Positions 26,302 through 51,239 of a DNA stretch of 64,000 bases are shown here, in pieces; the first letter of the stretch is position 1, and every line of letters starts with the position of its first letter. The stretch is taken from the NCBI RefSeq assembly GCF_004765815.2, contig NZ_SBIS02000014.1:1-64000 (forward strand), read 5' to 3'. The stretch comes from Halorussus salinus (GTDB lineage: Archaea; Halobacteriota; Halobacteria; Halobacteriales; Haladaptataceae). The position numbers and the translations under genes were made by a program. A model generated the notes under the pieces. The model saw only the letters and a list, made by a program, of their open reading frames with translations. It did no database searches and had not been told where the DNA came from.

Positions 26302-27570
26302 TTAGAGTAGTGTCGAAGAGTCCGACTCCGTCGAAATCATAATCTCGTCGGACGATTCGACGGTATCTCGAATACTTTCGTGGACGCCGACGTACTCTAG
26401 AAGGTCCGAGAGGGCCGCAAGCACGGTCCGAAGGTCAGCCTGTAGTCGATGATTCTTGTACTTCCCACCGGAGAGTCCTTCGTTTTGAGCGGACGACTGG
26501 ATAAGCGAGAGGTCGGCCATCTCCTTCAGGAAATCGCGGACGCGACGTGACGTTAAGGGGTCGTTCCCGACGTGATGGGAGAGTTCCGAGTAGCGATCGT
26601 AAATCGTCTGCGAAGAGACGGGAGTTTCCCCAGCGCCCTCGAACGTCGCAAGCGCGTAGAGCGTGAGTTGCTGATGTTCCGCGAGATCGGCGATACCGTC
26701 CATCAGTTCTTCGCGTTCCAGTTTCTCGCGGGCGCGATTGACGTGGGATTCTTCGACTTGCTCCGCGCTCTCTGCTCGCGCGATGTCACCGGCTTCGCGC
26801 AGGAGGTCGAGAGCCTTGCGAGCATCGCCAGAGTCCTGCGCTCCGTACGCCGCACAGAGTGGGAGTACGTCGTCGGCGAGCGCACCGTCGTGGAACGCGA
26901 TGTCTGCTCGCTGGCGAAGCACGTCTCGGAGTTCGTTTGCATCGTAGGGCGGGAAACTGATGGATTTCTCCGTGAGTGAGGACCGAACTTTCGCGGACAG
27001 ATTGTCGCGGAACGCGAGGTCGTTGCTGATACCGATGATGCCGACCTTGGCATCTTGGAGGTTGTCGTTACTCCGCGCACGCGGGATTTGATAGAGAATC
27101 GAGTCGTCGCCACCGATGTTGTCGACTTCGTCGAGGACTATCAGGACGATGCCGCCGACGGTGTCGAGTTCGTCCCAGAGGAATTCGTAGATTTTGTATC
27201 GTGGGTGGCCGGTTTCGCTGATTTTGTCGCCTTCGTCGCGGAACTGATTCACGAGTTGGATGGCGACTTGATAGCTCTTGTTCAAGCCTTCGCAGTTGAG
27301 ATAGACGACAGAGAGGTCAACGTCGAATTTCTCGGCGTCTTTTTCGAGTCGAGAGAGGAGATAGTCGGTGCTGGCGGTTTTACCGACGCCGGTTTTGCCG
27401 TAGAGGAAGATGTTGCTCGGTTGTTCGCCGTTGATTGCGGGCTGTAGTGCTTCGTGGTACTGTGCGAGTTCGTCGTCGCGGCCGACGATGGTCTCGGGGG
27501 TGTAGTCCTCGAAGAGGGTATCGCGGTCGCGGTAGAGACTATCGTCGGGTTGGAAGCTAATTTCGTGCAT
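26302..27570 (-). CDS. Orc1/Cdc6 family replication initiator
   Basis: 422 residues from the ATG at 27570; upstream in-frame ATGs are translations of the repeat-rich origin and were discarded. The AAA+ domain has Walker A GKTGVGKT at 58-65, Walker B VLIVLDEVDN near 135 and sensor 1 GISND near 175. A C-terminal winged helix follows from about 325. Family members bind origin recognition boxes and load MCM helicase. The upstream 470 bp carry repeated GTTTCCAGTG elements, arguing that it acts on an adjacent origin. The locus is lower in GC than its neighbours, as with acquired or plasmid-derived initiators, of which haloarchaea have several. Confidence 0.93.
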   Translation of the reverse strand: MHEISFQPDDSLYRDRDTLFEDYTPETIVGRDDELAQYHEALQPAINGEQPSNIFLYGKTGVGKTASTDYLLSRLEKDAEKFDVDLSVVYLNCEGLNKSYQVAIQLVNQFRDEGDKISETGHPRYKIYEFLWDELDTVGGIVLIVLDEVDNIGGDDSILYQIPRARSNDNLQDAKVGIIGISNDLAFRDNLSAKVRSSLTEKSISFPPYDANELRDVLRQRADIAFHDGALADDVLPLCAAYGAQDSGDARKALDLLREAGDIARAESAEQVEESHVNRAREKLEREELMDGIADLAEHQQLTLYALATFEGAGETPVSSQTIYDRYSELSHHVGNDPLTSRRVRDFLKEMADLSLIQSSAQNEGLSGGKYKNHRLQADLRTVLAALSDLLEYVGVHESIRDTVESSDEIMISTESDSSTLL

Positions 27571-27581
27571 CGGTGGGTGCT

Positions 27582-27863
27582 GTTTCCAGTGTTCTTCTCG
27601 GGGTGTTGTTTCTAGTGTTTTCTCGGGGGTGTTGTTTCCAGTGCTATTCGGACAGTGGCGTTTCCAATGCAATTGGTAAAGTCGTTGTTCTTTACTGCCA
27701 CCACGGTTTCCAGTGCTATCCTACACACCACTGTTTCCAGTGCTTTCCTCGGGACGACGTGACTATCGGCTGGGTTCCGCGTAGAGAGCGTTAGAAACGC
27801 TATTCTCGTTGTGCTGTGGCTACATCGGACAGTGAGAGAGTGTCGTTTCCAGTGCTTTGCGAG
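27582..27863 (+). repeat. Array of ORB-like boxes, plus orientation
   Basis: Boxes begin at 27582, 27608 (one mismatch, TTTCTAG), 27634, 27660 (TTTCCAATG), 27706, 27733 and 27845. The best conserved form is GTTTCCAGTGCTTTCCTCGG. Spacing is irregular, with 26 nt between the first three. Confidence 0.8.
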
Positions 27864-36852: not shown

Positions 36853-39800
36853 CTACGCGGTCCCGTCGGTGGTCGTCTCGTTCGCGTTCGTCTCGTTCGC
36901 GTTCGTCTCGTTCGCCGACGCGTGGAGCGCCTGCACGTCGAGTACGTCGATGTCGTCGCCGTCCTCGTTGAAGTCGAACGCGAAGTCGTTGGTCCGCACC
37001 AACTCGTCGCGGTAGGCGTCGAAGAACGCCCGCACGTCGCCGGACTCGACGCTCCCGTCGCCGTCCACGTCGCGGTAGCGCCCGTCGCCGTCCACGTCCC
37101 GCGGGGCCGCCGACCCGACGAGGAGTGCGGGTCGGGGCGGGCGGACGAGCAGGGTGTCGGTCACGACGGTGGACACGCCGTCGTCGTCCACGACGACGAG
37201 GCGGACCGTGTGGTGGCCGGGGGTCCGGCCGGTCCAGTTTACGGCGGTCTCGTCCACGTCGAAGGCGGTGTCCGAGACGTTCCACTGGGTGTGGACGGCC
37301 TCGCCGTCGGCGTCACTCAGATTGGTCGCGGTGAGTTGGACGCTCTCGTCTACGTCCACGGCCGACTCGCTCATCCGAATCTCGCCGCTCGGCGGGACGA
37401 GCGTCGTGTCGAGTTTCACCCGGTCCACGACCACGTTGTCCGCGAGCGCGGTCTCGCCCGGTGCCGTCACCAGAATCTCGACCGCGTCGCCCGCGGAGAC
37501 GCCCGCGAGGTCGAGCGTTACCTCGGTGAACGTCGCCACCGATGTCGAGTCCGAGGCTTCGGCGGTGACGTTCCGCGAGGCGACCAGCGCACCCGTCGAG
37601 GAGTTCCGCACCTCGACGGTCGCCGGGGTGTCGGCCAGTCCGGCGTTCGAGACGAGGACCGACGCGCGGACGGTGCCCGCTCGCTCGTAGTAACCGACCC
37701 GCCCGTCCGAGACTGTGAGGTCGGGTTGGAACAGGTACCGCGAACGCAGGTCGTCGCTGTCGTTGCCGTCGATGGCCGTTTCGTTCGGCGCGAGTTCGAA
37801 CCGCGTGGTGTACGACGGATCGACATCGCTCGCCGGTACCGAGACCGTGACCGTCCGAGTCTCGCCGGGGTCGAGGCCCGGTATCGTCCCGTAGTGCTGG
37901 AGCGTCGGCCCGTTGCCGAGGCGGTACTCGACGGTCCCCGCGCGGACCGCCGACGGGTTCGTCACGTTCGCCGCGACCGTGACGGTGTCGCCGTCGCGGG
38001 TGGCCGTGACGGCGGTGACGTTCAGGTCCGGGCGGAGCGCGAGCGCCCGAACGTCGTTGTTCTCCTCGTCGAACTCGGCGAGCGCGTCGTCGGCGTCGGC
38101 CGACACCGAGAGGAGTCCCGTCTCGTCTACGGTGACGGTCGCGGTCCCCGTGACGGTCTCGCCGACCGGAACCGGCGGGAGTTCGACCGAACGGAGCGTC
38201 TCCGCGCCGGACTGGACGGTCAGGTTCGACTCCTCGGCCGCGGTGTCGCCGGTGTTCCGGACCTCGTAGGCCACCGTCACCTCGTCGCCGACGCCGACGT
38301 TCTCGGCGTCGAGCGAGGCGTTCAGCGTCAGGTCGGGCCGGAACCGGTGTTCGAAGGCGTACACGTCGGCCTGCTGGTCGGAGGTGAGGTCCTGCCCGGC
38401 GAACACCGACACGAACCCGTTTTCCGTCGGTGCCGCGCTTCCCTGCCAGAACGTGAGGTTTCGAGCCGACCCGTCGGCGTACTTGCGCGCCGGGAGCCAC
38501 TCGCCGTCGATTCGGGGCTTGTAGAACGCGGCCGCCACGTCGCTCGCGTCGGGGTACGCCCGGAAGTTCACGAGGAGGTCGCCGTCCTGCTCGGTGAGTT
38601 CGACCGTCTGGGGCGTCGAGACGTTCGGGCCGGTCTCGACCGTCCGCGCGCCCGTCGCGTCGGCGACCGTTATCGACGCGTTCGTCGACCCGGTGTCGAT
38701 GACGCCGACGTGGGTCGCGCTCACGTCCGCGTCGCCGAGTTTCGCCACGGGAATCGTCCGCTCGGACTGCTTCGGGAGGCCCGCCTCCGCGCCGACCGTC
38801 TCGACGGTGAGCGTCCCCGAGGTGGAACTGTCGTTCATCGCCAGATAGCCGACGCGGAACCCGTCGGCGGTGGCCGCGACGCTGGGCGCGCTCGCCGTCT
38901 CGACGGTGTGGACCGGGCCGACCGACCCGTCGGTGCCGTCGTACCGGACGTACTGGACCGACTGGTCGCGCCACGTTGTCAGGTTGCCGTCTCCGTCCTC
39001 GGTCCACGCGACGAGCCACTCGTCGCCGTGCTGGGCGACGGCGGGACCGAAGTCGAAGTCGTCGTCGTCGGTGAGGAACGTCGGCGCGCTCCACCCGGAG
39101 TCGTTCGCGGTGGCGACGCGGATTTCGCCGTGCGGGTAGACCGCCGCGGGGCCGTCGGCGTCCTCGAAGGTCCGGTCGAAGGTAGTGAACGCCGCGAGCG
39201 TCCCGTCGGCCGCCGACCCGGCGACGGCGGGGTCGAAGTCGCCCATCGCGTCGTCGGTGACGGGCGCGAGCGTCGTAATCCGGTCGCCGTCGATTCGCGC
39301 GACCTGCACGTCCCGGCCGTTGAGCGCGGACTTGCCGCCCGACTGGTGGCTCCAGACCACCGTGTGTCCGGACCCGACTCGCGTAATCGCGGGCGTCTCG
39401 TCGGCGACGGTGTTGTCGGTGACGACGCCGGTGTCCACGATTCGCGCGGGCATCGCGCCGTCGGTCTCGAAGCGAGCGTCCGCGAAGCCGGTCCACGGCC
39501 CGGCGGTCTGGCGGGTCCCGTCGGCGGTCTCGTACTCGGGTTTCGGCGGTCGGTCACCGCTGGTCTCCCGAACCTGCCACGTCGTCTCGGAACTGCCGAC
39601 GCCCGCGGTCGTACTGTCCTCGGACCCGTCCTGATAGAGCGTGAACTCGGTGCTGAACTTGTTCTTCTTGCCCGACGGGAAGTACGCCGTCTTCGTGAAC
39701 ATGTACGCCTGCGCTCTCGCGTAGACCTGCCCGGCCAGCCCGACGGTGATGGGCGACGCCTCGGGGAGCGGAACCTTCGACGCGATCTCCTCTTCGAAGC

Positions 39801-42800
39801 CGACGACGAGTTGAATCTCGCTCCACTTCTTGCCGATCTCCTGTTTCGCGCCGAGTTTCGGCGCGACCTCTCCTTTCTCGAACTCGAACGCCACCTCGTC
39901 GCCGGGGCCGACGGTGTCTTTCTCGTCGAAGGTCGTCACCAGCTTCACCTCGCCCTCGAAGATGGGGTAGAGGTTCACCACGTTCGGCGGGACCGGACCG
40001 ATGGGCGGGTTCGGTATCCCGTTCGGCGGGAACTCCGCGCTCCCGGTGACTTTGAGTTCGAGTTCGCCCTTGGTCAGGTCGCCCTCTTCGAGGTCGAAAA
40101 ACGCCTTTCCGGCGGCGCTCCCGTTGATTTCGACCACCTTCATCTTGTAGCCCGCCTGCCCGCCGACCGACACCTCCGTCTCGGTCGTCGTCAGGTCCAC
40201 CTTGACGGTGACGGTCACCCCGGCGCTCGTCGATTGGTTCTCGCCGGTCCCCGGCATGTCTATCTTGTCCTTGAACGGGAACTCGGCCGGAATCCGATTC
40301 GAGACGTTGAGCGGTCGCTCCGAACTCAAAATTAGGTAGCCGTGGGTCGGCCGCGACACCGAGACGGTCATCGTCTGGAACCACTCGGGCGTCGAGATGT
40401 GGCCGACTCGAATCCCCCGACTCGCCGTCGAGCCGTTGGTGTGGACCGCGGTCGCCACCAGCGTCTCGTCGCCGTCTACGACGCTCGGGTCCACCGGGAA
40501 GGTGTACCCGTCGCTCCCGTCGGCATCGACGTGGGTCGCGTTCCCGAGTCGGAACCGGACCTCCTCGGTGTTCGACGGTTGGCTCACCGCGGCGCGGTAG
40601 CTCAGGTCGAGCGGGAGTCCTTCGATGACGACCACGTTCTTTCGCGGGTGGCCCGACAGGTGGGGCGTCACCGAGACGACGCCGAACGACGCTGGCTCCT
40701 CGCCGACCGTTATCTGCTGGGTGACCGAGAAGCCGCGGCCCTCCTCGGTCACGGCCGAGTGGGTGACGGTGTAGACGCCCGGCGAGTCGTAGGTGTGGGC
40801 GACCTGTCTGCCCCGCGCGGTCGTGCCGTCGCCGAAGTTCCACTCGACTTTGGCGATCTCCGCGCCGGAGGTCGTGACGCCCGCGGTCTGGAAGCGCAGG
40901 CTCCGGTTGACGACCGGGTTACGAATCCCGACGTTGAACTCCAACTCGCTCGGCGACGTGTAGGAAATTCTGTCGCCGCGGACCGCTGGCGGTTTCGAGA
41001 GCGGATTCGAGCAATCGACTGCCGGGTCGCACTGCCCATCCAGCGGACCGCCCAACTGCCCCCAGTAGTTCCGGGTCGCGTCGCCGCCGTCCGACCGGTA
41101 GGCGTACACGCCCGTCGCGCTGTTGTTGGCGAGGAGACTGTCGTGAATCTCCCACGGCGCGTTCGCGTAGCGCACCCGGACGCCGTAGCTGTTGTTCACC
41201 AGATGGGAGTTGGTGATGGACACCGCTCGGTCCACGCCCGAGGCCCTGACGCCAGCGTCGAACTCGCGGACGACGAACCCCGAGACGGAAGCGCCGCCAC
41301 GGTTGGACAGGGAGATGCCGTCGGAACCGCCGCCGAGCGTCGAGCCGTTGAGGACCGCGCCCCGCGGCGCGGTCAGGTTGATGTCGGTTCGAATCCGGAC
41401 CGACTCCCGATAGGTGCCGGGCCGGACCTCGACGGTGTCGCCCGATTCCGCGACTTCCACCGCGTCCTGTATGGTGGCGTACGGCGCGGAGCCGTCCTCG
41501 GCCACGACGTGAACGCGAGGGCGGACGAGCGGGATATCGACGGAGCCGTCCGGACTCGGCAGGAAGTAGCCACAGTCAACGTCGCCGCGGCACTGTCCTT
41601 TCGTCGGGCCGTCGGCCTGTCCCCAGTAGTTCCCGGTGGCGTTGCCGACCTGCGACGAGTGCCCGCGCACGCCCGCGTAGGAGTTGTTGTATATCTCGCT
41701 GCGGTGGATTCCCCACGGTTCGTAGTTGTCCTCGGCGTAGAGTCCGTGACCGTTGCGCCGAAGGACGACGTTCTCGACCACGAACGGGTCGTCCACGTGG
41801 TTTGCGTCGATGCCGTGATTCCACTCCTCGACGGTGAACCCGGAAACCGTCGCGTTCGCGTGGCCGTAGAGACGAATCCCGTCTGAGTTGGAGTTCGACC
41901 CGTTCAGAACTGCGCCGTCGGGCGCGACGAACGACAGTGGTTGCCGGATGCGAACCGACTCGCGGTACGTGCCGGGACGTACCTCGACGGTCGCGTGGTT
42001 CGGGGCGGCCTGAATCGCGTCCTGCATCGTGGCGTACGGTTCGGAGCCGTCGTTAGCGACGACGTAGGTGCCCGTCCGGTTCGTCGGAACCGCCACCGAT
42101 TCGTCCGGACTCGACCGGAAGTAGCCGCAGTCCACGTCGCCCCGACACTGCTCGCTGGTCGGCCCGTCGGCCCGTCCCCAGTAGTTGTCGGTGGCGTCGC
42201 CGACCTGCGACGAGTGGCCTCGAACACCGGTGTAGGAGTTGTTGTAGATTTCGCTGTGATGAATCGCCCACGGCTCGTAGTTGTCCTCGGCGTAGAACCC
42301 GTGACCGTTCCGTCGGAGGACGACGTTCTCGACGACGAACGGGTCGTCCACGTGGTTTGCGTCGATGCCGTGGTTCCACTCCTCGACAGTGAACCCGGAA
42401 ATCGTCGCGTTCGCGTGACCGTAGAGCCGAATCCCGTCTGCCCCCGAGTTCGACCCGTTCAAGACCGCGCCGTCGGGTGCGACGAACGATAGGGGTTTCC
42501 GAATGCGAACCGACTCGCGGTACGTGCCGGGACGGACCTCGACGGTGGCGCGGTTCGGCGCGGCCTGAATCGCGTCCTGCATCGTGGCGTACGGTTCGGA
42601 ACCGTCGTTTGCGACGACGTAGGTCCCCGACCGATTCGCCGGGACCGACACCGGGTCGTCGGGTGCGTGACGGAAGTAGCCACAGTCAACGTCGCCGCGA
42701 CACTGGTCTTTCGTCGGTCCGTCGGCCTGCCCCCAGTAGTTGTCGGTGGCGTCACCGAGTTGCGACGAGTGGCCCCGAACACCGGTGTACGAGTTGTTGT

Positions 42801-45675
42801 ATATCTTGCTGTCGTGAATCGCCCACGGCTCGTAGTTATCCTCGGCGTAGAACCCGTGACCGTTGCGTCGAAGCACGACGTTCTGGACGACGAACGGATC
42901 GTCCACGTGGTTTGCGTCGATGCCGTGGTTCCACTCCTCGATTGTGAAACCCGAGATAGTGACGTTTGCGTGGCCGTAGAGGCGAATCCCGTCCGACCCC
43001 GAGTTCGACCCGCGGAGTGTCGCGCCGTTCGGTGCCCGAACGTCGAGGGGTTGCCGGATGCGGACTGACTCGCGGTAAGTGCCGGGCCGGACCGTAACCG
43101 TCGCTCCGTTTGGCGCGGCCTGAATCGCGTCCTGCATCGTGGCGTAGGGTTCCGAGCCGTCGTTAGCCACGACGTAGGTACCAGTCCTGTCGGCTGGCAC
43201 CGCGACGGAGCCGTTCGGACTCGACAGGAAGTAGCCACAGTCCACGTCGCCACGACACTGCTCGCTAGTCGGGCCGTCGGCCTGCCCCCAGTAGTTCCGG
43301 GTTGCATCGCCGAGTTGGGACGAGTGTCCGCGCACGCCCGCGTAGGAGTTGTTGTATATCTCGCTGTGATGAATCGCCCACGGTTCGTAGTTGTCCTCGG
43401 CGTAGAGTCCGTGACCGTTGCGTCGAAGCACGACGTTCTGGACGACGAACGGGTCGTCCACGTGATTGGCGTCGATGCCGTGGTTCCACTCCTCGACGGT
43501 GAACCCGGAAATCGTCGCGTTTGCGTCGCCGTAGAGTCGAATCCCGTCGTTCTGCGAGCTTTCCGACCCGTTCAATACTGCGCCGTCGGGTGCCCGGAGG
43601 TCCAGTGGCTCGTCGAGTCGCACCGATTCCCGATAGGTGCCGGGTCGGACTTCGACGGTGGCGCGGTTCGGGGCGGCCCGAATCGCGTCCTGTATGGTCG
43701 CGTACGGCTCGGTCCCGTCGTTGGCCACGACGTACGTTCCCGACCGGTCGGCCGGTACCGCGACGGAGCTGTCGGGACTCGACCGGAAGTAGCCACAATC
43801 CACGTCGCCGCGACACTGCTCGCTGGTCGGGCCGTCTGCCTGCCCCCAGTAGTTGTCGGTGGCGTCGCCCAGCGACGAACCGCTGGTCTGAATCGCGCTG
43901 TAAGAGTTGTTGACGAACTCGCTCGCCTCGACGTTCCACGCCGAGTACGTGTCGTCCACGTAGACCCCGCGGTCGTTTCGCCGGAAGACGACCTCCTCGA
44001 CGGTGAAGTTCGAGTCCACGTGGTCGGCGTCGATGCCGTGATTCCACTCCTCGATGGTGAACCCGGAAATCGTCGCGTTCGCGTCGTTGTAGAGTCGAAT
44101 CCCGTCGTTCTGCGAACTTTTCGACCCGTTCAGCGTCGCGCCGTCGGGCGCTCGGAACTCCAGCGGCTTGTCCAGACGCACGGACTCGCGGTAGGTGCCG
44201 GGACGGACTTCGACGGTGGCGCGGTTCGGGGCGGCCCGAATCGCGTCCTGCATCGTGGCGTACGGCTCGGAGCCGTCGGCGGCGACGACGTACGTTCCCG
44301 AGCGGTCGGCAGGCACCGCGACCGAATCGCCGGGAGCCGACCGGAAGTACCCGCAGTCTACGTCGCCGCGGCACTGCTCGCTGGCCGGGCCGTCGGCCTG
44401 CCCCCAGTAATTGTCGGTGGCGTCGCCCAGCGACGAGCCGCTCGTCTGAATCGCGCTGTAAGAGTTGTTCGTGAATTCGCTCCCCTGAACCCGCCACGTC
44501 GAGTACGTGTCGTCCACGTAGAGACCACGGTCGTTCCGCCGGAGGAGAACGTTCTCCACGGTGAAATTCGAGTCCACGTGGTCGGCGTCGATGCCGTGAC
44601 TCCACTCCTCGACGGTGAACCCGGAAATCGTCACGTTCGCGTCGTTGTAGAGTCGAATCCCGTCGTTCTGTGAGGTTTCCGACCCGTTCAGGACTGCGCC
44701 GTCTGGGGCCCGGAGGTCCAGCGGTTCGTCGAGCCGTACCGATTCTCGGTAGGTGCCGGGCCGGACCTCGACGGTCGCGCGGTTCGGAGCGGCCTGAATC
44801 GCGTCCTGCATCGTGGCGTAGGGTGCCGAACCGTCGGCGGCGACGACGTAGGTGCCGCTTCGGTCGAGCGGGACGGAGACTGAATCGGTGGGGCTGGACC
44901 GGAAGTAGCCACAGTCAACGTCGCCGCGGCACTGCTCGCTGGTCGGCCCGTCGGCCTGCCCCCAGTAGTTGTCGGTGGCATCGCCGAGCGACGAACCGCT
45001 CGTCTGAATCGCGCTGTAGGAGTTGTTCGTGAACTCGCTCGCTTCGACGTTCCACGTCGAGTACGTGTCGTCCACGTAGAGCCCGCGCCTGTTCCCACGC
45101 AGGTCGATATCGACGACCGAGAAATTCCGGTCGACGTGGTCCGCGTGGATGCCGACATCGTAGCCGGTAACGGTCAGCCCCGACAGTTCGACCTTCGCGT
45201 CGCCGTAGAGTCGAATCCCGTCGGCCGAGGAGCCCAGCGACGAGCCGTCGAGCGTCGCGCCGTCGGGTGCCCGGAGGTCTAGCGGCTTGTCGAGGCGCAC
45301 GGTCTGGGCGTACACGCCCGGTTCGACGCGAATCGTGTCGCCCGCACTCGCGTTGTCCACCGCGTGTTGAATCGTCCGGTAGTCGCCGGTGCCGTCGTCG
45401 TCCACGGTGAGTGTCGTCGCCGACGCGAGCGAGAACTGGCGACCCGGCCCGGACGCGTCCGCCGCGGGTTGCGCGAAGGCGTCGGCTCCGTCGAAGCGAA
45501 GCGAGAGGTCGAGTGCGCCAGACGTGTCGAAGCTCTCGGGCGTGTCGAGTCCGCTCGGGACTTCGACGCCCTGCGCGCGAGGGAGCGCGGACGCTGGCGT
45601 CGAGGCCGAAACCATCGAGACGACGAGCAGGACGGTCATAAATACGCTCTTTCGCCGACTAGACGCGGATGTCAT
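36853..45675 (-). CDS. Giant secreted protein: eight beta-helix repeats, PKD, CARDB and dockerin
   Basis: 2940 residues, with an N-terminal hydrophobic signal (VFMTVLLVVSMVSASTPASA). Residues about 88-1555 contain eight homologous units of roughly 185 residues, each with a right-handed beta-helix/NosD-type pattern, a PGTYRESVR motif and an NYWGQADGP turn followed by Cys pairs (CRGDVDCGY). A PKD domain (KVEWNFGDGT near 1615), a unique region (1760-2010), a propeller-like region, three CARDB-like segments (about 2445, 2547, 2650) and a PKD-like segment follow. It ends in a dockerin-like domain (2858-2930, DVDGDGSVESGDVRAFF and DVLDVQALHA) and an Asn/Thr tail. No membrane anchor is visible, so it may be held by the adjacent cohesin protein. 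A carbohydrate- or surface-binding role is inferred. Confidence 0.9.
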   Translation of the reverse strand: MTSASSRRKSVFMTVLLVVSMVSASTPASALPRAQGVEVPSGLDTPESFDTSGALDLSLRFDGADAFAQPAADASGPGRQFSLASATTLTVDDDGTGDYRTIQHAVDNASAGDTIRVEPGVYAQTVRLDKPLDLRAPDGATLDGSSLGSSADGIRLYGDAKVELSGLTVTGYDVGIHADHVDRNFSVVDIDLRGNRRGLYVDDTYSTWNVEASEFTNNSYSAIQTSGSSLGDATDNYWGQADGPTSEQCRGDVDCGYFRSSPTDSVSVPLDRSGTYVVAADGSAPYATMQDAIQAAPNRATVEVRPGTYRESVRLDEPLDLRAPDGAVLNGSETSQNDGIRLYNDANVTISGFTVEEWSHGIDADHVDSNFTVENVLLRRNDRGLYVDDTYSTWRVQGSEFTNNSYSAIQTSGSSLGDATDNYWGQADGPASEQCRGDVDCGYFRSAPGDSVAVPADRSGTYVVAADGSEPYATMQDAIRAAPNRATVEVRPGTYRESVRLDKPLEFRAPDGATLNGSKSSQNDGIRLYNDANATISGFTIEEWNHGIDADHVDSNFTVEEVVFRRNDRGVYVDDTYSAWNVEASEFVNNSYSAIQTSGSSLGDATDNYWGQADGPTSEQCRGDVDCGYFRSSPDSSVAVPADRSGTYVVANDGTEPYATIQDAIRAAPNRATVEVRPGTYRESVRLDEPLDLRAPDGAVLNGSESSQNDGIRLYGDANATISGFTVEEWNHGIDANHVDDPFVVQNVVLRRNGHGLYAEDNYEPWAIHHSEIYNNSYAGVRGHSSQLGDATRNYWGQADGPTSEQCRGDVDCGYFLSSPNGSVAVPADRTGTYVVANDGSEPYATMQDAIQAAPNGATVTVRPGTYRESVRIRQPLDVRAPNGATLRGSNSGSDGIRLYGHANVTISGFTIEEWNHGIDANHVDDPFVVQNVVLRRNGHGFYAEDNYEPWAIHDSKIYNNSYTGVRGHSSQLGDATDNYWGQADGPTKDQCRGDVDCGYFRHAPDDPVSVPANRSGTYVVANDGSEPYATMQDAIQAAPNRATVEVRPGTYRESVRIRKPLSFVAPDGAVLNGSNSGADGIRLYGHANATISGFTVEEWNHGIDANHVDDPFVVENVVLRRNGHGFYAEDNYEPWAIHHSEIYNNSYTGVRGHSSQVGDATDNYWGRADGPTSEQCRGDVDCGYFRSSPDESVAVPTNRTGTYVVANDGSEPYATMQDAIQAAPNHATVEVRPGTYRESVRIRQPLSFVAPDGAVLNGSNSNSDGIRLYGHANATVSGFTVEEWNHGIDANHVDDPFVVENVVLRRNGHGLYAEDNYEPWGIHRSEIYNNSYAGVRGHSSQVGNATGNYWGQADGPTKGQCRGDVDCGYFLPSPDGSVDIPLVRPRVHVVAEDGSAPYATIQDAVEVAESGDTVEVRPGTYRESVRIRTDINLTAPRGAVLNGSTLGGGSDGISLSNRGGASVSGFVVREFDAGVRASGVDRAVSITNSHLVNNSYGVRVRYANAPWEIHDSLLANNSATGVYAYRSDGGDATRNYWGQLGGPLDGQCDPAVDCSNPLSKPPAVRGDRISYTSPSELEFNVGIRNPVVNRSLRFQTAGVTTSGAEIAKVEWNFGDGTTARGRQVAHTYDSPGVYTVTHSAVTEEGRGFSVTQQITVGEEPASFGVVSVTPHLSGHPRKNVVVIEGLPLDLSYRAAVSQPSNTEEVRFRLGNATHVDADGSDGYTFPVDPSVVDGDETLVATAVHTNGSTASRGIRVGHISTPEWFQTMTVSVSRPTHGYLILSSERPLNVSNRIPAEFPFKDKIDMPGTGENQSTSAGVTVTVKVDLTTTETEVSVGGQAGYKMKVVEINGSAAGKAFFDLEEGDLTKGELELKVTGSAEFPPNGIPNPPIGPVPPNVVNLYPIFEGEVKLVTTFDEKDTVGPGDEVAFEFEKGEVAPKLGAKQEIGKKWSEIQLVVGFEEEIASKVPLPEASPITVGLAGQVYARAQAYMFTKTAYFPSGKKNKFSTEFTLYQDGSEDSTTAGVGSSETTWQVRETSGDRPPKPEYETADGTRQTAGPWTGFADARFETDGAMPARIVDTGVVTDNTVADETPAITRVGSGHTVVWSHQSGGKSALNGRDVQVARIDGDRITTLAPVTDDAMGDFDPAVAGSAADGTLAAFTTFDRTFEDADGPAAVYPHGEIRVATANDSGWSAPTFLTDDDDFDFGPAVAQHGDEWLVAWTEDGDGNLTTWRDQSVQYVRYDGTDGSVGPVHTVETASAPSVAATADGFRVGYLAMNDSSTSGTLTVETVGAEAGLPKQSERTIPVAKLGDADVSATHVGVIDTGSTNASITVADATGARTVETGPNVSTPQTVELTEQDGDLLVNFRAYPDASDVAAAFYKPRIDGEWLPARKYADGSARNLTFWQGSAAPTENGFVSVFAGQDLTSDQQADVYAFEHRFRPDLTLNASLDAENVGVGDEVTVAYEVRNTGDTAAEESNLTVQSGAETLRSVELPPVPVGETVTGTATVTVDETGLLSVSADADDALAEFDEENNDVRALALRPDLNVTAVTATRDGDTVTVAANVTNPSAVRAGTVEYRLGNGPTLQHYGTIPGLDPGETRTVTVSVPASDVDPSYTTRFELAPNETAIDGNDSDDLRSRYLFQPDLTVSDGRVGYYERAGTVRASVLVSNAGLADTPATVEVRNSSTGALVASRNVTAEASDSTSVATFTEVTLDLAGVSAGDAVEILVTAPGETALADNVVVDRVKLDTTLVPPSGEIRMSESAVDVDESVQLTATNLSDADGEAVHTQWNVSDTAFDVDETAVNWTGRTPGHHTVRLVVVDDDGVSTVVTDTLLVRPPRPALLVGSAAPRDVDGDGRYRDVDGDGSVESGDVRAFFDAYRDELVRTNDFAFDFNEDGDDIDVLDVQALHASANETNANETNANETTTDGTA
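41010..45410 (-). repeat. Eight-unit tandem repeat region in the giant gene
   Basis: Eight coding units of about 555 nt lie head to tail. Units 1-3 share a YVDDTYS-W segment. Units 4-7 share a YAEDNYEPW segment and adjacent GVRGHSSQ. Unit 4 combines an N-terminal part like units 2-3 with the second type downstream. Unit 8 is divergent. Neighbouring units are nearly identical over long stretches of DNA, so copy number should vary by recombination, and short-read assemblies may collapse them. Confidence 0.85.
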
Positions 45676-45895
45676 TTCGTAGTCTCCAGTTTCCTTGGTT
45701 GCATAGAATTGTATTTCAGAGCGGGATTTCCAGAGTCATTATAAATCGTGTTGACTTGTCGGTTGTCGCGTTGCTTTTGAAAGTATATTAAATCTGCTGT
45801 TGTAAAACCGATAAAAGATAGATTGTTTACAGAAATGGGTGCTGGTACCGGTGAAATAGGCGTCGTCCGAGGAGAAGCCCACGAGCGGTTGCCAT
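45676..45895. promoter_or_regulatory. A/T-rich intergenic region before the giant gene
   Basis: About 220 nt between the cohesin stop and the giant gene start. It is markedly A/T-rich. The minus strand carries GATTTATAATG at about 45737-45748, 63-73 nt before the ATG, a possible promoter with a leader of roughly 40 nt. The giant gene may therefore be expressed apart from the cohesin gene. No small gene is visible. Confidence 0.45.
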
Positions 45896-47242
45896 CTACG
45901 GTCGGTGGCGTCGAAGCACGGCGAGACCGGCGGTGACGAGCGCCACCAGCGTCGCGCCGAGTCCGAATCCGGGAACGTCGCCGTCCGCGTCGGCAGTCGT
46001 CGCCCGAGGAGATTCGTCGGCGGTGGCGGTCGTGGCGTTCTCACTCGCGGACGCCTCATCCGCCGCCGCGGTCGTCCCGGCCGTCGTCGGGTCCGACGAC
46101 TGGTCGGCGGTCGGGTCGAGAACCACGGCGAACGGCGAGAACCCTTCCGTCGTCGCGGTGAACGTGGCACCGTCGCGCTCGACGCCGACCTCGGTCCACG
46201 ACCCGTCCGCGTAGCGATACACCGCGACCTCGCTCAGCGTCGCGCCGGTCGGCAGTGCGCTCGCTGGCAGGTGAAATCGGTAGCGCGCTTCGCCGACGAC
46301 CGACGGCGAGGCGTACCGCGTCTCGACGGTGACGTGACCGAGGAGTTCCTCGCCCGGCGGGGCCGGGATACCCGCTGGCGACTCGCTCGCGCCCCGCAAC
46401 TCGAACAGCGCATGCGCGCTCTCGCCGGTGAACTCGAACCGGACGTGTTCGACGGTCAGACCGCCGACACCGAACTCCTCGACCGACGCGTCGAGGCGCG
46501 TCTCGGGCCGGACGTTCCGCACGTCGAACCGCACGCCGCTGTCGGTTCGCTCCTCGGTGAACTGGACCGGCGGCGGTGGTACGTTCGCGCCGCCTCCTCC
46601 GCCTCCTCCGGCACCTCCGCCACCGCCTCCGCCGCCGGAACTCGCAGTGGTCGTCGAGGTCGTCGCCGCGGTGGTCGTCGCGGTAGTCTCGGCAGTCGTG
46701 GACCGGTCCGCGGTCACGGAGAGCCGGCCCGAGGAGACGGCGACCGGGGCGTACTCGTTTCCGCTCTCGTCGCCGATGACCTCCACGCCGACGGTCACGT
46801 CCGACTCGCCGACCGCCTCGCCGACGAGCGTGACCCGCGCGATTTCGACGGTTCCGGTCTGGGCCGTATCGACGCCGTAGGCGATTGCGCGGACCGACGA
46901 GTCGTCCGCGTTGGAGTCGATTTGGGTGCCCTCCGGTCCGCCAGCGAGCGAGACCTCCTCGATGCGAGCGACCGACGAGTTCCCGAGACCGACCGACAGG
47001 TTGTACGCGCCGACGCCCGCAGTGACCGACGACGCGGTTATCGTGACCGTCGTGGTCTCGCCCGTCGTCACGCTCGTCGTCTCGGGCGACGGTTGGACCG
47101 TCACGCCACCCGCGCTCGCGGCGACCGACTCCGCTTCGAGCGGGGCGGCGACCGGTTCCGTTCCGACCACCGGACTCACCGTCCCGGAGACGACTACGAC
47201 AGCGACGACCAGACCGACGACCGCCGTCCTGAGATTCTTCAT
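45896..47242 (-). CDS. Secreted cohesin-domain protein with PGF-CTERM anchor
   Basis: 448 residues. A signal peptide (1-27) is followed by a cohesin domain (about 50-175): SVTTGETTTVTITASS, the AYNLSVGLGNSSVARI strand pair, and IARVTLVGEAVGESDVTV, matching the cohesin pattern. A Thr/Ser/Gly-rich linker with Gly8 and Gly7 runs comes next (about 178-225), then a PGF-pre-PGF-type domain (FTEERTDSGVRF to SPFAVVL, about 225-375) and an Asp/Glu/Thr-rich linker. It ends with PGFGLGATLVALVTAGLAVL and a basic tail, the PGF-CTERM sorting signal read by archaeosortase A for lipid anchoring. The genes on both sides encode dockerin proteins, so this is the likely anchoring scaffold. Confidence 0.85.
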   Translation of the reverse strand: MKNLRTAVVGLVVAVVVVSGTVSPVVGTEPVAAPLEAESVAASAGGVTVQPSPETTSVTTGETTTVTITASSVTAGVGAYNLSVGLGNSSVARIEEVSLAGGPEGTQIDSNADDSSVRAIAYGVDTAQTGTVEIARVTLVGEAVGESDVTVGVEVIGDESGNEYAPVAVSSGRLSVTADRSTTAETTATTTAATTSTTTASSGGGGGGGGAGGGGGGGANVPPPPVQFTEERTDSGVRFDVRNVRPETRLDASVEEFGVGGLTVEHVRFEFTGESAHALFELRGASESPAGIPAPPGEELLGHVTVETRYASPSVVGEARYRFHLPASALPTGATLSEVAVYRYADGSWTEVGVERDGATFTATTEGFSPFAVVLDPTADQSSDPTTAGTTAAADEASASENATTATADESPRATTADADGDVPGFGLGATLVALVTAGLAVLRRHRP

Positions 47243-47315
47243 TCGGTGCTTGCGTCCGAGTACGGGGCAAAGTGTGTTTCGAAGCGTTCGAATTCGTACT
47301 CCGAAGTCGCGTTCG

Positions 47316-50300
47316 CTAACAACATTCGGTCTCCGAGGTCGAATTAGCTAGCAACCGTTGTGCGTCGAGTACGTCGGCGCTCCCGTCGCCGTTGAGGTCG
47401 TAGTACTTCGCGGCGTCGAGGACGTTCGGCGTCCGGTACCGCTCGAAGAGGAGGGCGGCGTCGCGTCGCGTCACCGCGCCGTCGCCGTCGGTGTCCTCGT
47501 AGCTCCCGTCGCCGTCCACGTCGGTCGGCCGCCCGGTCGTCGCCGAGAGCGGCGCGACCCCCGACACGCGGAACGCCGGTCGCGCGACGCGTTCGGTGAC
47601 GCTTCCGGCGGTCGTCTCGACTCGGACCGCCAGCGCCACCGTGCCCTCCGCGGAGAGTTCGAACGAGCCAGCGTACCGGGTCTCGTCGGCCGACTCGCTC
47701 GCGACCGAGACCGTCGCCTCGCTCCACGCCGACGCGACGCCGCTCTCGCCGAAGGGGTCCGACGGGACCGTCTCGCCGCCGCCCGCGTGGGCGTAGGCGA
47801 TAGTCACCGACTCGACGGCGGAGCGGTCGCGGTCCACGACGAGTTCGGCCGTCGCCCGTCCCGGCGGGACCCCGTTGTCGATGCCGAGCGTCGCGGATTC
47901 GGTCGCCCCGTCCGTCCCGTTCGTCCACCGCGAGCGGACGGTCCCGACGGAGACGTTCGCCGGGCGGTAGGCGGTCGCGGCGTCGGGCCGGTAGCGGAAC
48001 CGGTAGCGCGCCACCGTCTCTCCGGAGAGCGCGAAGGCGTCGCTGGCGTCGCTGGCGGTTACCGCGACGCTCGCGTTCGGCGACAGGTCGGTCCGGACCG
48101 TCTCGTTTCCGTGGCCCCGCTCGCGGACCGTCGCGTTCGCCCGCGTCGTCCCGTTCACCGCGAGCAGGAGGCGACCCGGCCGTGCGTCCGCGAGGGAGTC
48201 GCCGCCGACCCGGTTCGAGTCGGCCGCGTCGCCGACGGGAGAACGCTGGCCCGCCGAGGTCGCCGTCAGCGAGTCGGCCTCCTCGTCGATAGCGAGGTCG
48301 AGGTCCGACCGGAGCGGATGGACGTTCTTCACCACGGCGACCCGGTCGCCGCTGGCCGGGACCGGACGATTCGGGGTCGCCGGACCGTACGCCCACCCGC
48401 CGGGGTCGTCCCCGTCGCTTCCGTCCGGGTCGCCGCCGGTCGCGTTCGAGCGAAGGTGGAGACCGACGCGCTCGACCGCCGAGGAGACGTAGACCGTCTG
48501 TCCGGTTCGGTCGCCGAGGAGGCCCCGGTAGGCGTGGTCGAACTGGACCTCTCGGGGGCCGCCCGTGTCGGTGACGAGCGTCAGGTCGTAGGGGCGTCCC
48601 GTCCCGGTCCGGCGGTAGGTGACGTTCAGTTCGCCCAACTCCGAGGGTCGGACGGTGTGGGTCGTCTCGGTCGTCACCCCGGACAGCGACGACACCACGT
48701 CGTAGAGCGCCGCCCGGTCGAATCCGGTCGCGTTCCCGCTTCCGGCGTCGGAGTCGTCGCCGCTCCCGGACCCGTCTCCGCTCCCGGACTCACCTCCGTC
48801 CCCGGCCCCGTCCCGCGACCCGAGGAGTCGCTCGACGGTGACGCTCAGGTTCTCCGAGGGCGAGACCAGCGCGTCCGGACTCAACGGGCCGCGGGCCTCG
48901 ACTTCGCCGACGTAGGTGAACCGCGGCGTCGAGACTCGGTAGTTGACGTTCGTCCGGAGCGGTTCGACCGCCGGGAGGAGCGACGCGTTCAACCGCGCCG
49001 CCACGGTCTCGGACTCCCGCAGGTGGACGGCGGTGTCGTTCTTCCCGGCGCGGGCCACCGTGACGACTGGTCTGCCGGTCTCCTCGTCGGTGCCGGACGA
49101 GACGACGGTGTAGCCGACCCGCTCTAACGCGGTGACGGTCGCGGTCCCGTCGGTCAGCGCGAGCGTCTGCACGTCGGCGGCGGGCGCGTCGTCGTCCGCG
49201 ATTACGGTCACGGCGTCGCCGCTCGCGGTTCCCGACCCGAGCGCGTGCTTGGAGACGGTCAGCCGGTGCGTCCGCGCGAGGCCGAAGATGCCCGCCGTCG
49301 AGGCGGTCGCCCCCGACTCCGCAGTCGCGTTCGTCACGGTGATGCGGCCGCTGTAGACGCCGACCGCGTCTCCGGTCTCCACGGTGAGGGCCACGGTCGC
49401 GCGCTCGCCGGGGGCCAGCGCGAGCGTCGAGCGGTTCAGCGCGGCCGTCGCGGCGGTCTCCTCGCCGGTCGCATCGACGGGCGTGAGCGCCGCGTCGAGG
49501 GCGACGGTGCGGTCGCGGGCGGCCAGATTTCGCACCGTGACGGCGCGCGTGACCGTCCGGTTCGTCGCGTGTGCGCCGACATCGGTGACGCCCGGCGAGA
49601 CGACGACGCTCGGGTCCAGCGCCCGACTCGCGTTCACGACGCCCGCGCCCCGTTCGTAGACGGTCCGATTCGGAATCGGGTCGGCGGTCGAGACGAGGAG
49701 CGACTTCACGGTCCGAGGCGCGAGCGACGGCCGCTCGTCCAACAGGAGCGCGGCGATACCCGAGACGACCGGCGTCGCCATCGAGGTGCCCGAGGAACTC
49801 ACGTACTCGGCGTCGTACCCGGCGTCCGCGCTGGCCGCGCTCACGACGCTGACGCCGGGCGCGACGAGGTCGGGTTTCACGCGGAATCCGATGGGCGTCG
49901 GGCCGCGCGACGAGAAGTAGGCTAACTGGCCGTTCTTGTCGGTCGCGCCGACGGTGATGGCACCGCTGGCGACGCCGGGACTCCTGACGGTGGCGGCGTC
50001 GGGGCCGTCGTTCCCCGCGGCGACGACCACGACGGTGCCACGCGCGAGGGCGTGGTCGATGGCGGCGCGGTACGGGTCCACCGACCGCCCGCGGGTGACC
50101 GGGCCGCCGATGCTGATGCTGACCACGTCCGCGCCGGACTCGACGGACCAGTTGATGGCACGCACCACGTCCGAGGTCGAAGCGCGGCCGTCGCTCCCGA
50201 CCGCGCGGGCGTCGAGGAGCGAGGCGTTCGGTGCCACGCCGACGTACTGCCCGCCGCTGGCGGTGCCGTCGCCAGCGACGATGCCAGCGACGTGGGTGCC

Positions 50301-51239
50301 GTGGCCGACCGGGTCGGGGGCGCTCGTCCGCGCTCCCTCGCCCGTGAAGTCGCGCTCGGCGACCACGTTCCCGAGGTCCGGATGGTCCCCGTCGATGCCG
50401 GAATCGACCACCGCGACGGTGACGTTCCGGCCCGACGCGCCGTGGGCCGCGCGCGCCTCGCCGACGCCGGTCGCGTCGGTCACTTCGTCCAAGCTGATTT
50501 CGTACTCCACGTCGAGAGCGACCCGCTCGACCCGGTCGTTCGCCGCCAACTCCTCGAAGGCGGCTCCGGCCGCTGGCTTCCGGACGGCGGCGGCCACGGC
50601 GTCGATGCTCGCCAGCGACTCGTCGTCGGTCAGCCCCGACACCTCGCGGACGGGCGGGGACCCGGACGGTCGCGTCGGGTCGGACTCCTCAGCGGCCGTC
50701 GAGACGATGACCGGAATCGTCTCGCGCTCGCGGTCGGTCAGGTTCTGGCGTCGGAGGAGGTCCACGTCGAACAGCCGCCTGTCGAAGCGCCGGAAGTCGA
50801 TGCCGGTCGGGTAGACGTAGGTGCCCTCGCTCGTGACCACCTTCCGGAGGTCGGCGTCGGGCCGCGTCCGGTAGCGAATCGACCCGTTGCGCTCGACCAC
50901 GCGGACGCGATGGCCCGTCACGAGCGTGACGTTCCCGACGACCGTTCCCGACGTGTCCGATACTGTCGTCGCGTTCCCGGCGTCGGTGTCGGTCGCCGGA
51001 GCGTCGAGACTCCGGACTCCCGCCGTCGGTCCATTGCGGTTGAGCGAGGCCGGGTCGGCCCCGGCGGCCGAGGAGAACGAGTCGGCCGACTCCGCTACCG
51101 GTTTCGGCTCGCTCACCGGCGGGACCGCGGCCGCGCCGACGGCCTGTCCGACCAGCGCGCAGGCGACGAGGAGCGCCAGCAGGGTCCTGCGACTCGGCCG
51201 CCGCGCTTCGCCGCGCCGCCGTCGCGTCACTCCGACCAT
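47316..51239 (-). CDS. Secreted subtilisin-like serine protease (S8) with C-terminal dockerin
   Basis: 1307 residues. The signal region (about 17-40) is preceded by an Arg-rich start; a propeptide-like part follows. The catalytic triad is Asp in VAVVDSGIDGDHPDL near 278, His in GHGTHVAGIVAGDG near 313 and Ser in SSGTSMATPVVSG near 481. Long beta-rich regions follow, with Gly/Ser/Asp-rich linkers. The C-terminal 70 residues form a dockerin-like pair of calcium loops (DTDGDGAVTRRDAALLF and DLNGDGSADVLDAQRLL), ending in ETECC. No membrane anchor was found, so it would rely on the cohesin protein encoded 73 nt downstream. The paired genes support shared expression. Confidence 0.88.
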   Translation of the reverse strand: MVGVTRRRRGEARRPSRRTLLALLVACALVGQAVGAAAVPPVSEPKPVAESADSFSSAAGADPASLNRNGPTAGVRSLDAPATDTDAGNATTVSDTSGTVVGNVTLVTGHRVRVVERNGSIRYRTRPDADLRKVVTSEGTYVYPTGIDFRRFDRRLFDVDLLRRQNLTDRERETIPVIVSTAAEESDPTRPSGSPPVREVSGLTDDESLASIDAVAAAVRKPAAGAAFEELAANDRVERVALDVEYEISLDEVTDATGVGEARAAHGASGRNVTVAVVDSGIDGDHPDLGNVVAERDFTGEGARTSAPDPVGHGTHVAGIVAGDGTASGGQYVGVAPNASLLDARAVGSDGRASTSDVVRAINWSVESGADVVSISIGGPVTRGRSVDPYRAAIDHALARGTVVVVAAGNDGPDAATVRSPGVASGAITVGATDKNGQLAYFSSRGPTPIGFRVKPDLVAPGVSVVSAASADAGYDAEYVSSSGTSMATPVVSGIAALLLDERPSLAPRTVKSLLVSTADPIPNRTVYERGAGVVNASRALDPSVVVSPGVTDVGAHATNRTVTRAVTVRNLAARDRTVALDAALTPVDATGEETAATAALNRSTLALAPGERATVALTVETGDAVGVYSGRITVTNATAESGATASTAGIFGLARTHRLTVSKHALGSGTASGDAVTVIADDDAPAADVQTLALTDGTATVTALERVGYTVVSSGTDEETGRPVVTVARAGKNDTAVHLRESETVAARLNASLLPAVEPLRTNVNYRVSTPRFTYVGEVEARGPLSPDALVSPSENLSVTVERLLGSRDGAGDGGESGSGDGSGSGDDSDAGSGNATGFDRAALYDVVSSLSGVTTETTHTVRPSELGELNVTYRRTGTGRPYDLTLVTDTGGPREVQFDHAYRGLLGDRTGQTVYVSSAVERVGLHLRSNATGGDPDGSDGDDPGGWAYGPATPNRPVPASGDRVAVVKNVHPLRSDLDLAIDEEADSLTATSAGQRSPVGDAADSNRVGGDSLADARPGRLLLAVNGTTRANATVRERGHGNETVRTDLSPNASVAVTASDASDAFALSGETVARYRFRYRPDAATAYRPANVSVGTVRSRWTNGTDGATESATLGIDNGVPPGRATAELVVDRDRSAVESVTIAYAHAGGGETVPSDPFGESGVASAWSEATVSVASESADETRYAGSFELSAEGTVALAVRVETTAGSVTERVARPAFRVSGVAPLSATTGRPTDVDGDGSYEDTDGDGAVTRRDAALLFERYRTPNVLDAAKYYDLNGDGSADVLDAQRLLANSTSETECC

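Follow-up and report, generated by a model that had tools for sequence, protein, structure and literature searches.

The surface proteins of bacterial cellulosomes carry an S-layer anchor. In archaea, the closest described systems include the non-cellulosomal cohesin–dockerin pairs of Archaeoglobus fulgidus (2XDH) and of anaerobic methanotrophic (ANME) archaea (PMC9012536), which share with the locus described here a cohesin fold, type I-like dockerins, and cargo other than cellulases. According to the ANME paper, earlier work had held multi-cohesin scaffoldins to be absent from archaea, with ANME archaea as the exception found (PMC9012536). We analyzed a 64,000-nucleotide window of Halorussus salinus DNA (contig NZ_SBIS02000014.1, positions 1–64,000, to which all unprefixed coordinates refer) and found three consecutive minus-strand genes encoding a protease with a C-terminal dockerin (P0003), a cohesin protein with a predicted membrane anchor (P0002), and a large beta-helix protein with a C-terminal dockerin (P0001). 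The ORFs (open reading frames) and order given for these genes in an initial annotation, made from the sequence alone, were reproduced; P0003 is transcribed first, then P0002, then P0001, with intergenic gaps of 73 and 220 bp. P0002 quite probably acts as a surface docking station, in which one cohesin would serve the two dockerin cargo proteins. The features are as follows.

47316–51239, minus strand: P0003, S8 protease with C-terminal dockerin, 1307 residues (ORF call and domain search)
49671–50432, minus strand: S8 catalytic domain of P0003, residues 270–523 (PF00082, E 2e-60)
47340–47528, minus strand: dockerin of P0003, residues 1238–1300, class Q, second repeat VLDAQRL (Pfam and family profile)
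45896–47242, minus strand: P0002, cohesin with PGF-CTERM, 448 residues (ORF call)
46697–47110, minus strand: cohesin domain of P0002, modeled residues 45–182, class A, GVGAY (profile and structure)
46115–46576, minus strand: PGF-pre-PGF-like module of P0002, residues 223–376, shared with single-chain S8 proteases
45905–45985, minus strand: PGF-CTERM anchor signal of P0002, residues 420–446 (TIGR04126, just under its cut-off)
36853–45675, minus strand: P0001, beta-helix, PKD, CARDB, and dockerin, 2940 residues (ORF call and domain search)
40996–45438, minus strand: beta-helix region of P0001, residues 80–1560, NosD/Beta_helix/pectinesterase-like, eight repeats of ~185 residues
36910–37104, minus strand: dockerin of P0001, residues 2858–2922, class Q, VLDVQAL (family profile and model)

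The P0002 cohesin matched neither Pfam (curated cut-off of PF00963) nor any NCBIfam cohesin model, a blank that reflects the limits of these models. We characterized it by fold and by a family collected in an iterative profile search seeded with residues 45–182. An AlphaFold2 model based on an alignment of 34 family members had a predicted local distance difference test score (pLDDT) of 96.4 and a predicted template modeling score of 0.88, and formed a nine-stranded jelly-roll beta-sandwich that could be superimposed along its full length on cohesins of known structure; the initial annotation had noted a cohesin strand pattern. Searched against solved structures with Foldseek (best E 1.8e-9), the model returned cohesins as 40 of its first 41 matches; VIA-align gave Z scores of 15.3 for 6kgc_A (128 residues, 2.3 Å) and 14.4 for the A. 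fulgidus cohesin 2XDH. The family aligned with 30 PF00963-recognized archaeal cohesins at an hhalign probability of 97.6, whereas control profiles for generic Ig-like domains (PKD, CARDB) stayed below 9, ruling out that assignment. Compared to the whole Protein Data Bank, the family profile matched scaffoldin cohesins only (E 0.006–0.14), and PF00963 touched 6 of the 25 family members examined, with a best E of 0.015. The modeled fold and these profile comparisons indicate that P0002 carries a genuine cohesin domain, belonging to a family that Pfam does not recognize. Two database records (WP_050038582.1 and WP_313690127.1) label the cohesin gene adjoining an annotated dockerin gene as 'hypothetical protein'.

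As the initial annotation had claimed, P0003 ends in a dockerin and P0001 very probably does. P0003 is predicted to be a secreted subtilisin-like protease of family S8, with the triad Asp279/His313/Ser486 and the motifs DSGIDG, GHGTHVAG, and GTSMATP at residues 279, 312, and 484. Its dockerin scored 30.5 bits with PF00404 (cut-off 22.9; E 4e-7), and both 12-residue calcium loops of this type I two-repeat module, DTDGDGAVTRRD and DLNGDGSADVLD, are intact. The P0001 dockerin, at 21.2 bits, fell just under the Pfam cut-off of 22.9 but matched our haloarchaeal dockerin profile at E 8e-25, a value obtained with a profile that includes this dockerin. Its model had a pLDDT of 94, and its structural neighbors were all dockerins, although the best Z score of 6.7 is weak alone for so small a domain; with 70 residues searched, Foldseek gave no match at E <0.001, and the 15 best were all cohesin–dockerin or dockerin entries. 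A short Asn/Thr tail lies downstream of the P0001 dockerin.

Searches of the whole genome found exactly three dockerins with the haloarchaeal profile, which also hits bacterial dockerins of known structure (CelS, E 4e-7), and exactly three cohesins with the profile of the P0002 family. The dockerins are those of P0003, P0001, and one protein on contig C8; the cohesins are that of P0002 and two encoded on C8, one of them anchored and the other within a cohesin–dockerin adaptor. All six fall in two loci and share one specificity class. The C8 locus (L036 9517–11949) encodes the adaptor, of 523 residues, followed by a 284-residue cohesin with a C-terminal transmembrane segment.

The same linkage recurs beyond this genome. 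Among 391 haloarchaeal genomes, 176 contain the cohesin family, 173 contain Pfam dockerins, and 135 contain both (odds ratio 15, p 5e-33, uncorrected for ancestry). Where loci were picked solely for their cohesin score, 60 cohesin ORFs lacked a dockerin of their own; for 51 of these, a dockerin ORF lay on the same strand no more than 1.5 kb away (median distance 55 bp), and 37 of the 60 had a C-terminal hydrophobic stretch. A dockerin-seeded search in named genomes gave a like result for Haloferax, Halobellus, Halorubrum, Haloarcula, Methanoregulaceae, and an Aenigmatarchaeote. The P0002 cohesin family is large, mostly missed by current databases, and located beside dockerin genes across haloarchaea. 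Pfam-recognized cohesins do also occur in haloarchaea, with PF00963 matches in 15 same-order genomes of a phylum sample. A second, Pfam-recognized haloarchaeal subfamily is found on dockerin proteins (L197 4220–5728 and L198 5702–7675), and in these two loci its cohesins were unmatched by profiles of the P0002 family. P0002-type cohesins joined to a dockerin are also present on contigs of bacterial metagenome-assembled genomes (L142 5035–6201 and L148 4768–6189; Acetothermia and Fraserbacteria).

Within this family, cohesins fall into two classes, A (GVGAY) and B (GLSGY), and the second dockerin repeat falls into class Q (D-x-Q) or class n (DD[IV] without Q). Adjacent genes paired as A–Q in 45 cases and B–n in 33, with 0 mismatches among 78 pairs; the code was spotted in a first set of loci and then held in 17 of 17 pairs of a second. 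Classes were assigned by regular expression, except that L115, which was misread, was reassigned to class B by eye and three loci were left unclassified. After clustering at 60% identity, the pairing remained significant (27 groups, p 5e-8), a threshold below which the effect is inseparable from ancestry. Two loci from closely related environmental haloarchaea of one genus, L046 and L088, have dockerin proteins that are 89% identical and cohesin-protein tails that are 92% identical, whereas their cohesin domains are 29% identical and the pairs differ in class (A/Q compared to B/n). Alignment of L046 7800–12000 with L088 4300–8450, otherwise 89–93% identical, shows that a single DNA block was replaced. 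It takes in the second repeat of the dockerin and everything up to where the cohesin domain ends, and its borders coincide with the two parts proposed to bind. This exchange is one event and thus does not demonstrate repeated co-evolution.

Homologues of P0003 provide an independent link between the protease and P0002. In nine other genomes of Halorussus and related genera (L205–L212 and L214), the homologous protease is a single chain of about 1,600–2,000 residues, ~50% identical to P0003 in the S8 domain, that carries a like, PGF-type anchor at its own C-terminus; similarity to the P0002 stalk module was detectable in six of the nine, and neither a cohesin nor a dockerin was found in these nine chains. 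There, protease and anchor form one polypeptide; here, they are split into a protease–dockerin and a cohesin–anchor protein, with an anchor like that of the relatives' chains on the neighboring cohesin protein.

We favor the docking-station reading, in which P0002 tethers the protease and the beta-helix protein at the surface, because of the cohesin fold, the genomic inventory, adjacency across dozens of genomes, class matching, the recombination block, and the one-chain relatives of the protease that end in a similar anchor. P0002 would be exported, cleaved by the archaeosortase ArtA at PGF-CTERM, and retained at the membrane, with its cohesin projecting on a stalk formed by a Gly/Thr-rich segment and the PGF-pre-PGF module. 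P0003 and P0001, exported without anchors, would bind this cohesin through their C-terminal dockerins, probably in a Ca2+-dependent manner, and the second-repeat motif VLDxQxL common to both would be read by the GVGAY-class cohesin. The cell would then display a mix of tethered protease and tethered beta-helix protein, a putative adhesin or glycan-binding protein, and cargo could be exchanged without altering the anchor. The initial annotation proposed the same tethering, which our evidence supports, and spoke of a surface assembly; a shared anchor is supported, but 'assembly' is too strong a word. Because P0002 contains one cohesin, the cargo proteins would be alternatives on each anchor rather than partners in a ternary complex or multi-enzyme scaffold.

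Several observations weigh against this reading. The PGF-CTERM assigned to P0002 in the initial annotation is marginal by score (23.1 bits compared to a TIGR04126 cut-off of 24.5), although it shows the PGF motif, a hydrophobic segment, and a basic terminus (residues 424–448) and the genome encodes ArtA (E 1e-99). The paired calcium loops reported at both C-termini are regular in P0003, but the second loop of P0001 (DFNEDGDDIDVLD) is irregular, with one extra residue. Orthology among many of the linked loci also means that their counts are not independent. Haloarchaea inhabit brines near 4 M salt, to which bacterial affinity values may not carry over. Two further Halorussus genomes, G004 and G014, have an orthologue of the P0002 cohesin, but the dockerin protease is absent from its side; the protease therefore looks like a later recruit. 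A conserved three-gene cassette is ruled out, as the dockerin protease adjoins the cohesin only in this species and the homologues inspected in other genomes lack a dockerin.

The alternative to which we give most weight, though we consider it unlikely, is that the wiring is crossed: the P0001 and P0003 dockerins would bind chiefly the anchored cohesin of C8, or ride on the C8 adaptor, while P0002 would serve the adaptor. The C8 locus holds both the adaptor and the transmembrane cohesin needed for such an arrangement, and every cohesin and dockerin in this genome belongs to one class. Adjacency is the rule in this cohesin family, however, and in G004 and G014 the P0001 orthologue follows the P0002 cohesin orthologue, so the two have stayed together. 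If P0001 and P0003 are docked on P0002, the same-class C8 adaptor could still extend the chain or compete for partners.

The irregular loop of P0001 could also mark a relic, whose modules persist without binding while both cargo proteins are simply secreted, and the P0001 orthologues in G014 and G004 do appear frame-shifted. We regard this as improbable: the P0003 loops are intact, the recognition motifs are retained, and the extra residue is also present in both P0001 orthologues, so that the irregular loop looks constrained rather than decayed. The orthologues are split into two frames at differing places (L037 10683–19440 and L038 2529–9043), which may reflect sequencing error, decay, or phase variation. 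Least probable of all is that the dockerins bind a glycan substrate and that the cohesin is unrelated to them. Glycan binding was asserted without a test for haloarchaeal mannanases (PMC10963439) and repeated in PMC13260240, but haloarchaeal dockerins are tied to cohesins by their shared distribution over genomes, their neighboring genes, the class pairing, and the exchanged DNA block alike.

Polysaccharide genes lie in the neighborhood of P0001–P0003, encoding a flippase-like protein, a nucleotidyltransferase, a sulfatase, a phosphomannomutase-type enzyme, and a UDP-N-acetylglucosamine epimerase. TATA-like archaeal boxes upstream of P0003 and P0001 were spotted by eye only, and a bacterial promoter scan was uninformative. 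An Orc1/Cdc6 gene (26302–27672) sits in a part of the window with low GC content and may mark a replication origin of the 142-kb contig.

Related loci suggest a wider range of architectures. L085 (5917–9497) encodes a PhoX-like phosphatase of about 890 residues with a cohesin and a dockerin, adjoining a cohesin with a C-terminal transmembrane segment; a gene pair like this recurs in many loci among L087–L124, the PhoX-type assignment coming from a domain search of L085 alone, and a metallophosphatase version occurs in Methanolinea (L158 and L161). At L040, L051, L100, L108, L110, and L128, haloarchaea encode proteins that carry two or three cohesins, several of them dockerin-ended; these adjoin dockerin proteins, which at L040 and L051 are of sugar dehydrogenase, malectin, and lectin-like types. 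The 2,723,120-bp genome of a cellulolytic haloarchaeon (G030; contig C1; loci L256–L295) encodes 71 dockerins, many of them on GH5, GH9+CBM3, GH10, GH11, and GH43 enzymes, together with multi-cohesin proteins, one of which (2063936–2065945) adjoins an anchored cohesin (2061180–2063897). This genome is probably that of the Halococcoides strain HArcel1, which we take to be Halococcoides cellulosivorans, and its dockerin/cohesin set is a candidate archaeal cellulosome. The words 'dockerin' and 'cohesin' are absent from the main text of the HArcel1 comparative paper, among the open-licence literature that was searched, and prior mention elsewhere is possible.

On balance, we lean toward a general, previously unrecognized haloarchaeal cohesin–dockerin system with a readable class code, in which P0001–P0003 would be a small case, and, if so, it would range from one-cohesin stations for proteases or phosphatases, through multi-cohesin scaffoldins, to a true cellulosome in a cellulose degrader. 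Haloarchaeal dockerins have been called orphan or substrate-binding because their partner went unseen, and the P0002 family is the likely missing partner. Docking of this kind would give S-layer archaea a general route to display changeable surface proteins; the specificity code is directly testable, and salt-tolerant cohesin–dockerin pairs could be of practical use.

A cellulosome joins a multi-cohesin scaffoldin to glycoside hydrolases; P0001–P0003 comprise one cohesin and no glycoside hydrolase, and thus do not form one. The GH26 mannanases of Natronoglomus share a type I dockerin on secreted enzymes, but their dockerin was interpreted as binding substrate, with no cohesin described alongside it (PMC10963439). 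The type I cohesins of Clostridium thermocellum OlpA and OlpC (3UL4 and 4DH2) resemble P0002 in fold and sit on surface proteins that receive a dockerin protein, the role proposed for P0002, whereas P0002 has an archaeosortase-type C-terminus and its locus lacks glycoside hydrolases. Relative to the A. fulgidus and ANME pairs, P0002 brings a cohesin sequence family that Pfam does not recognize, a predicted PGF-CTERM anchor, and, as its putative cargo, a protease and a beta-helix protein.

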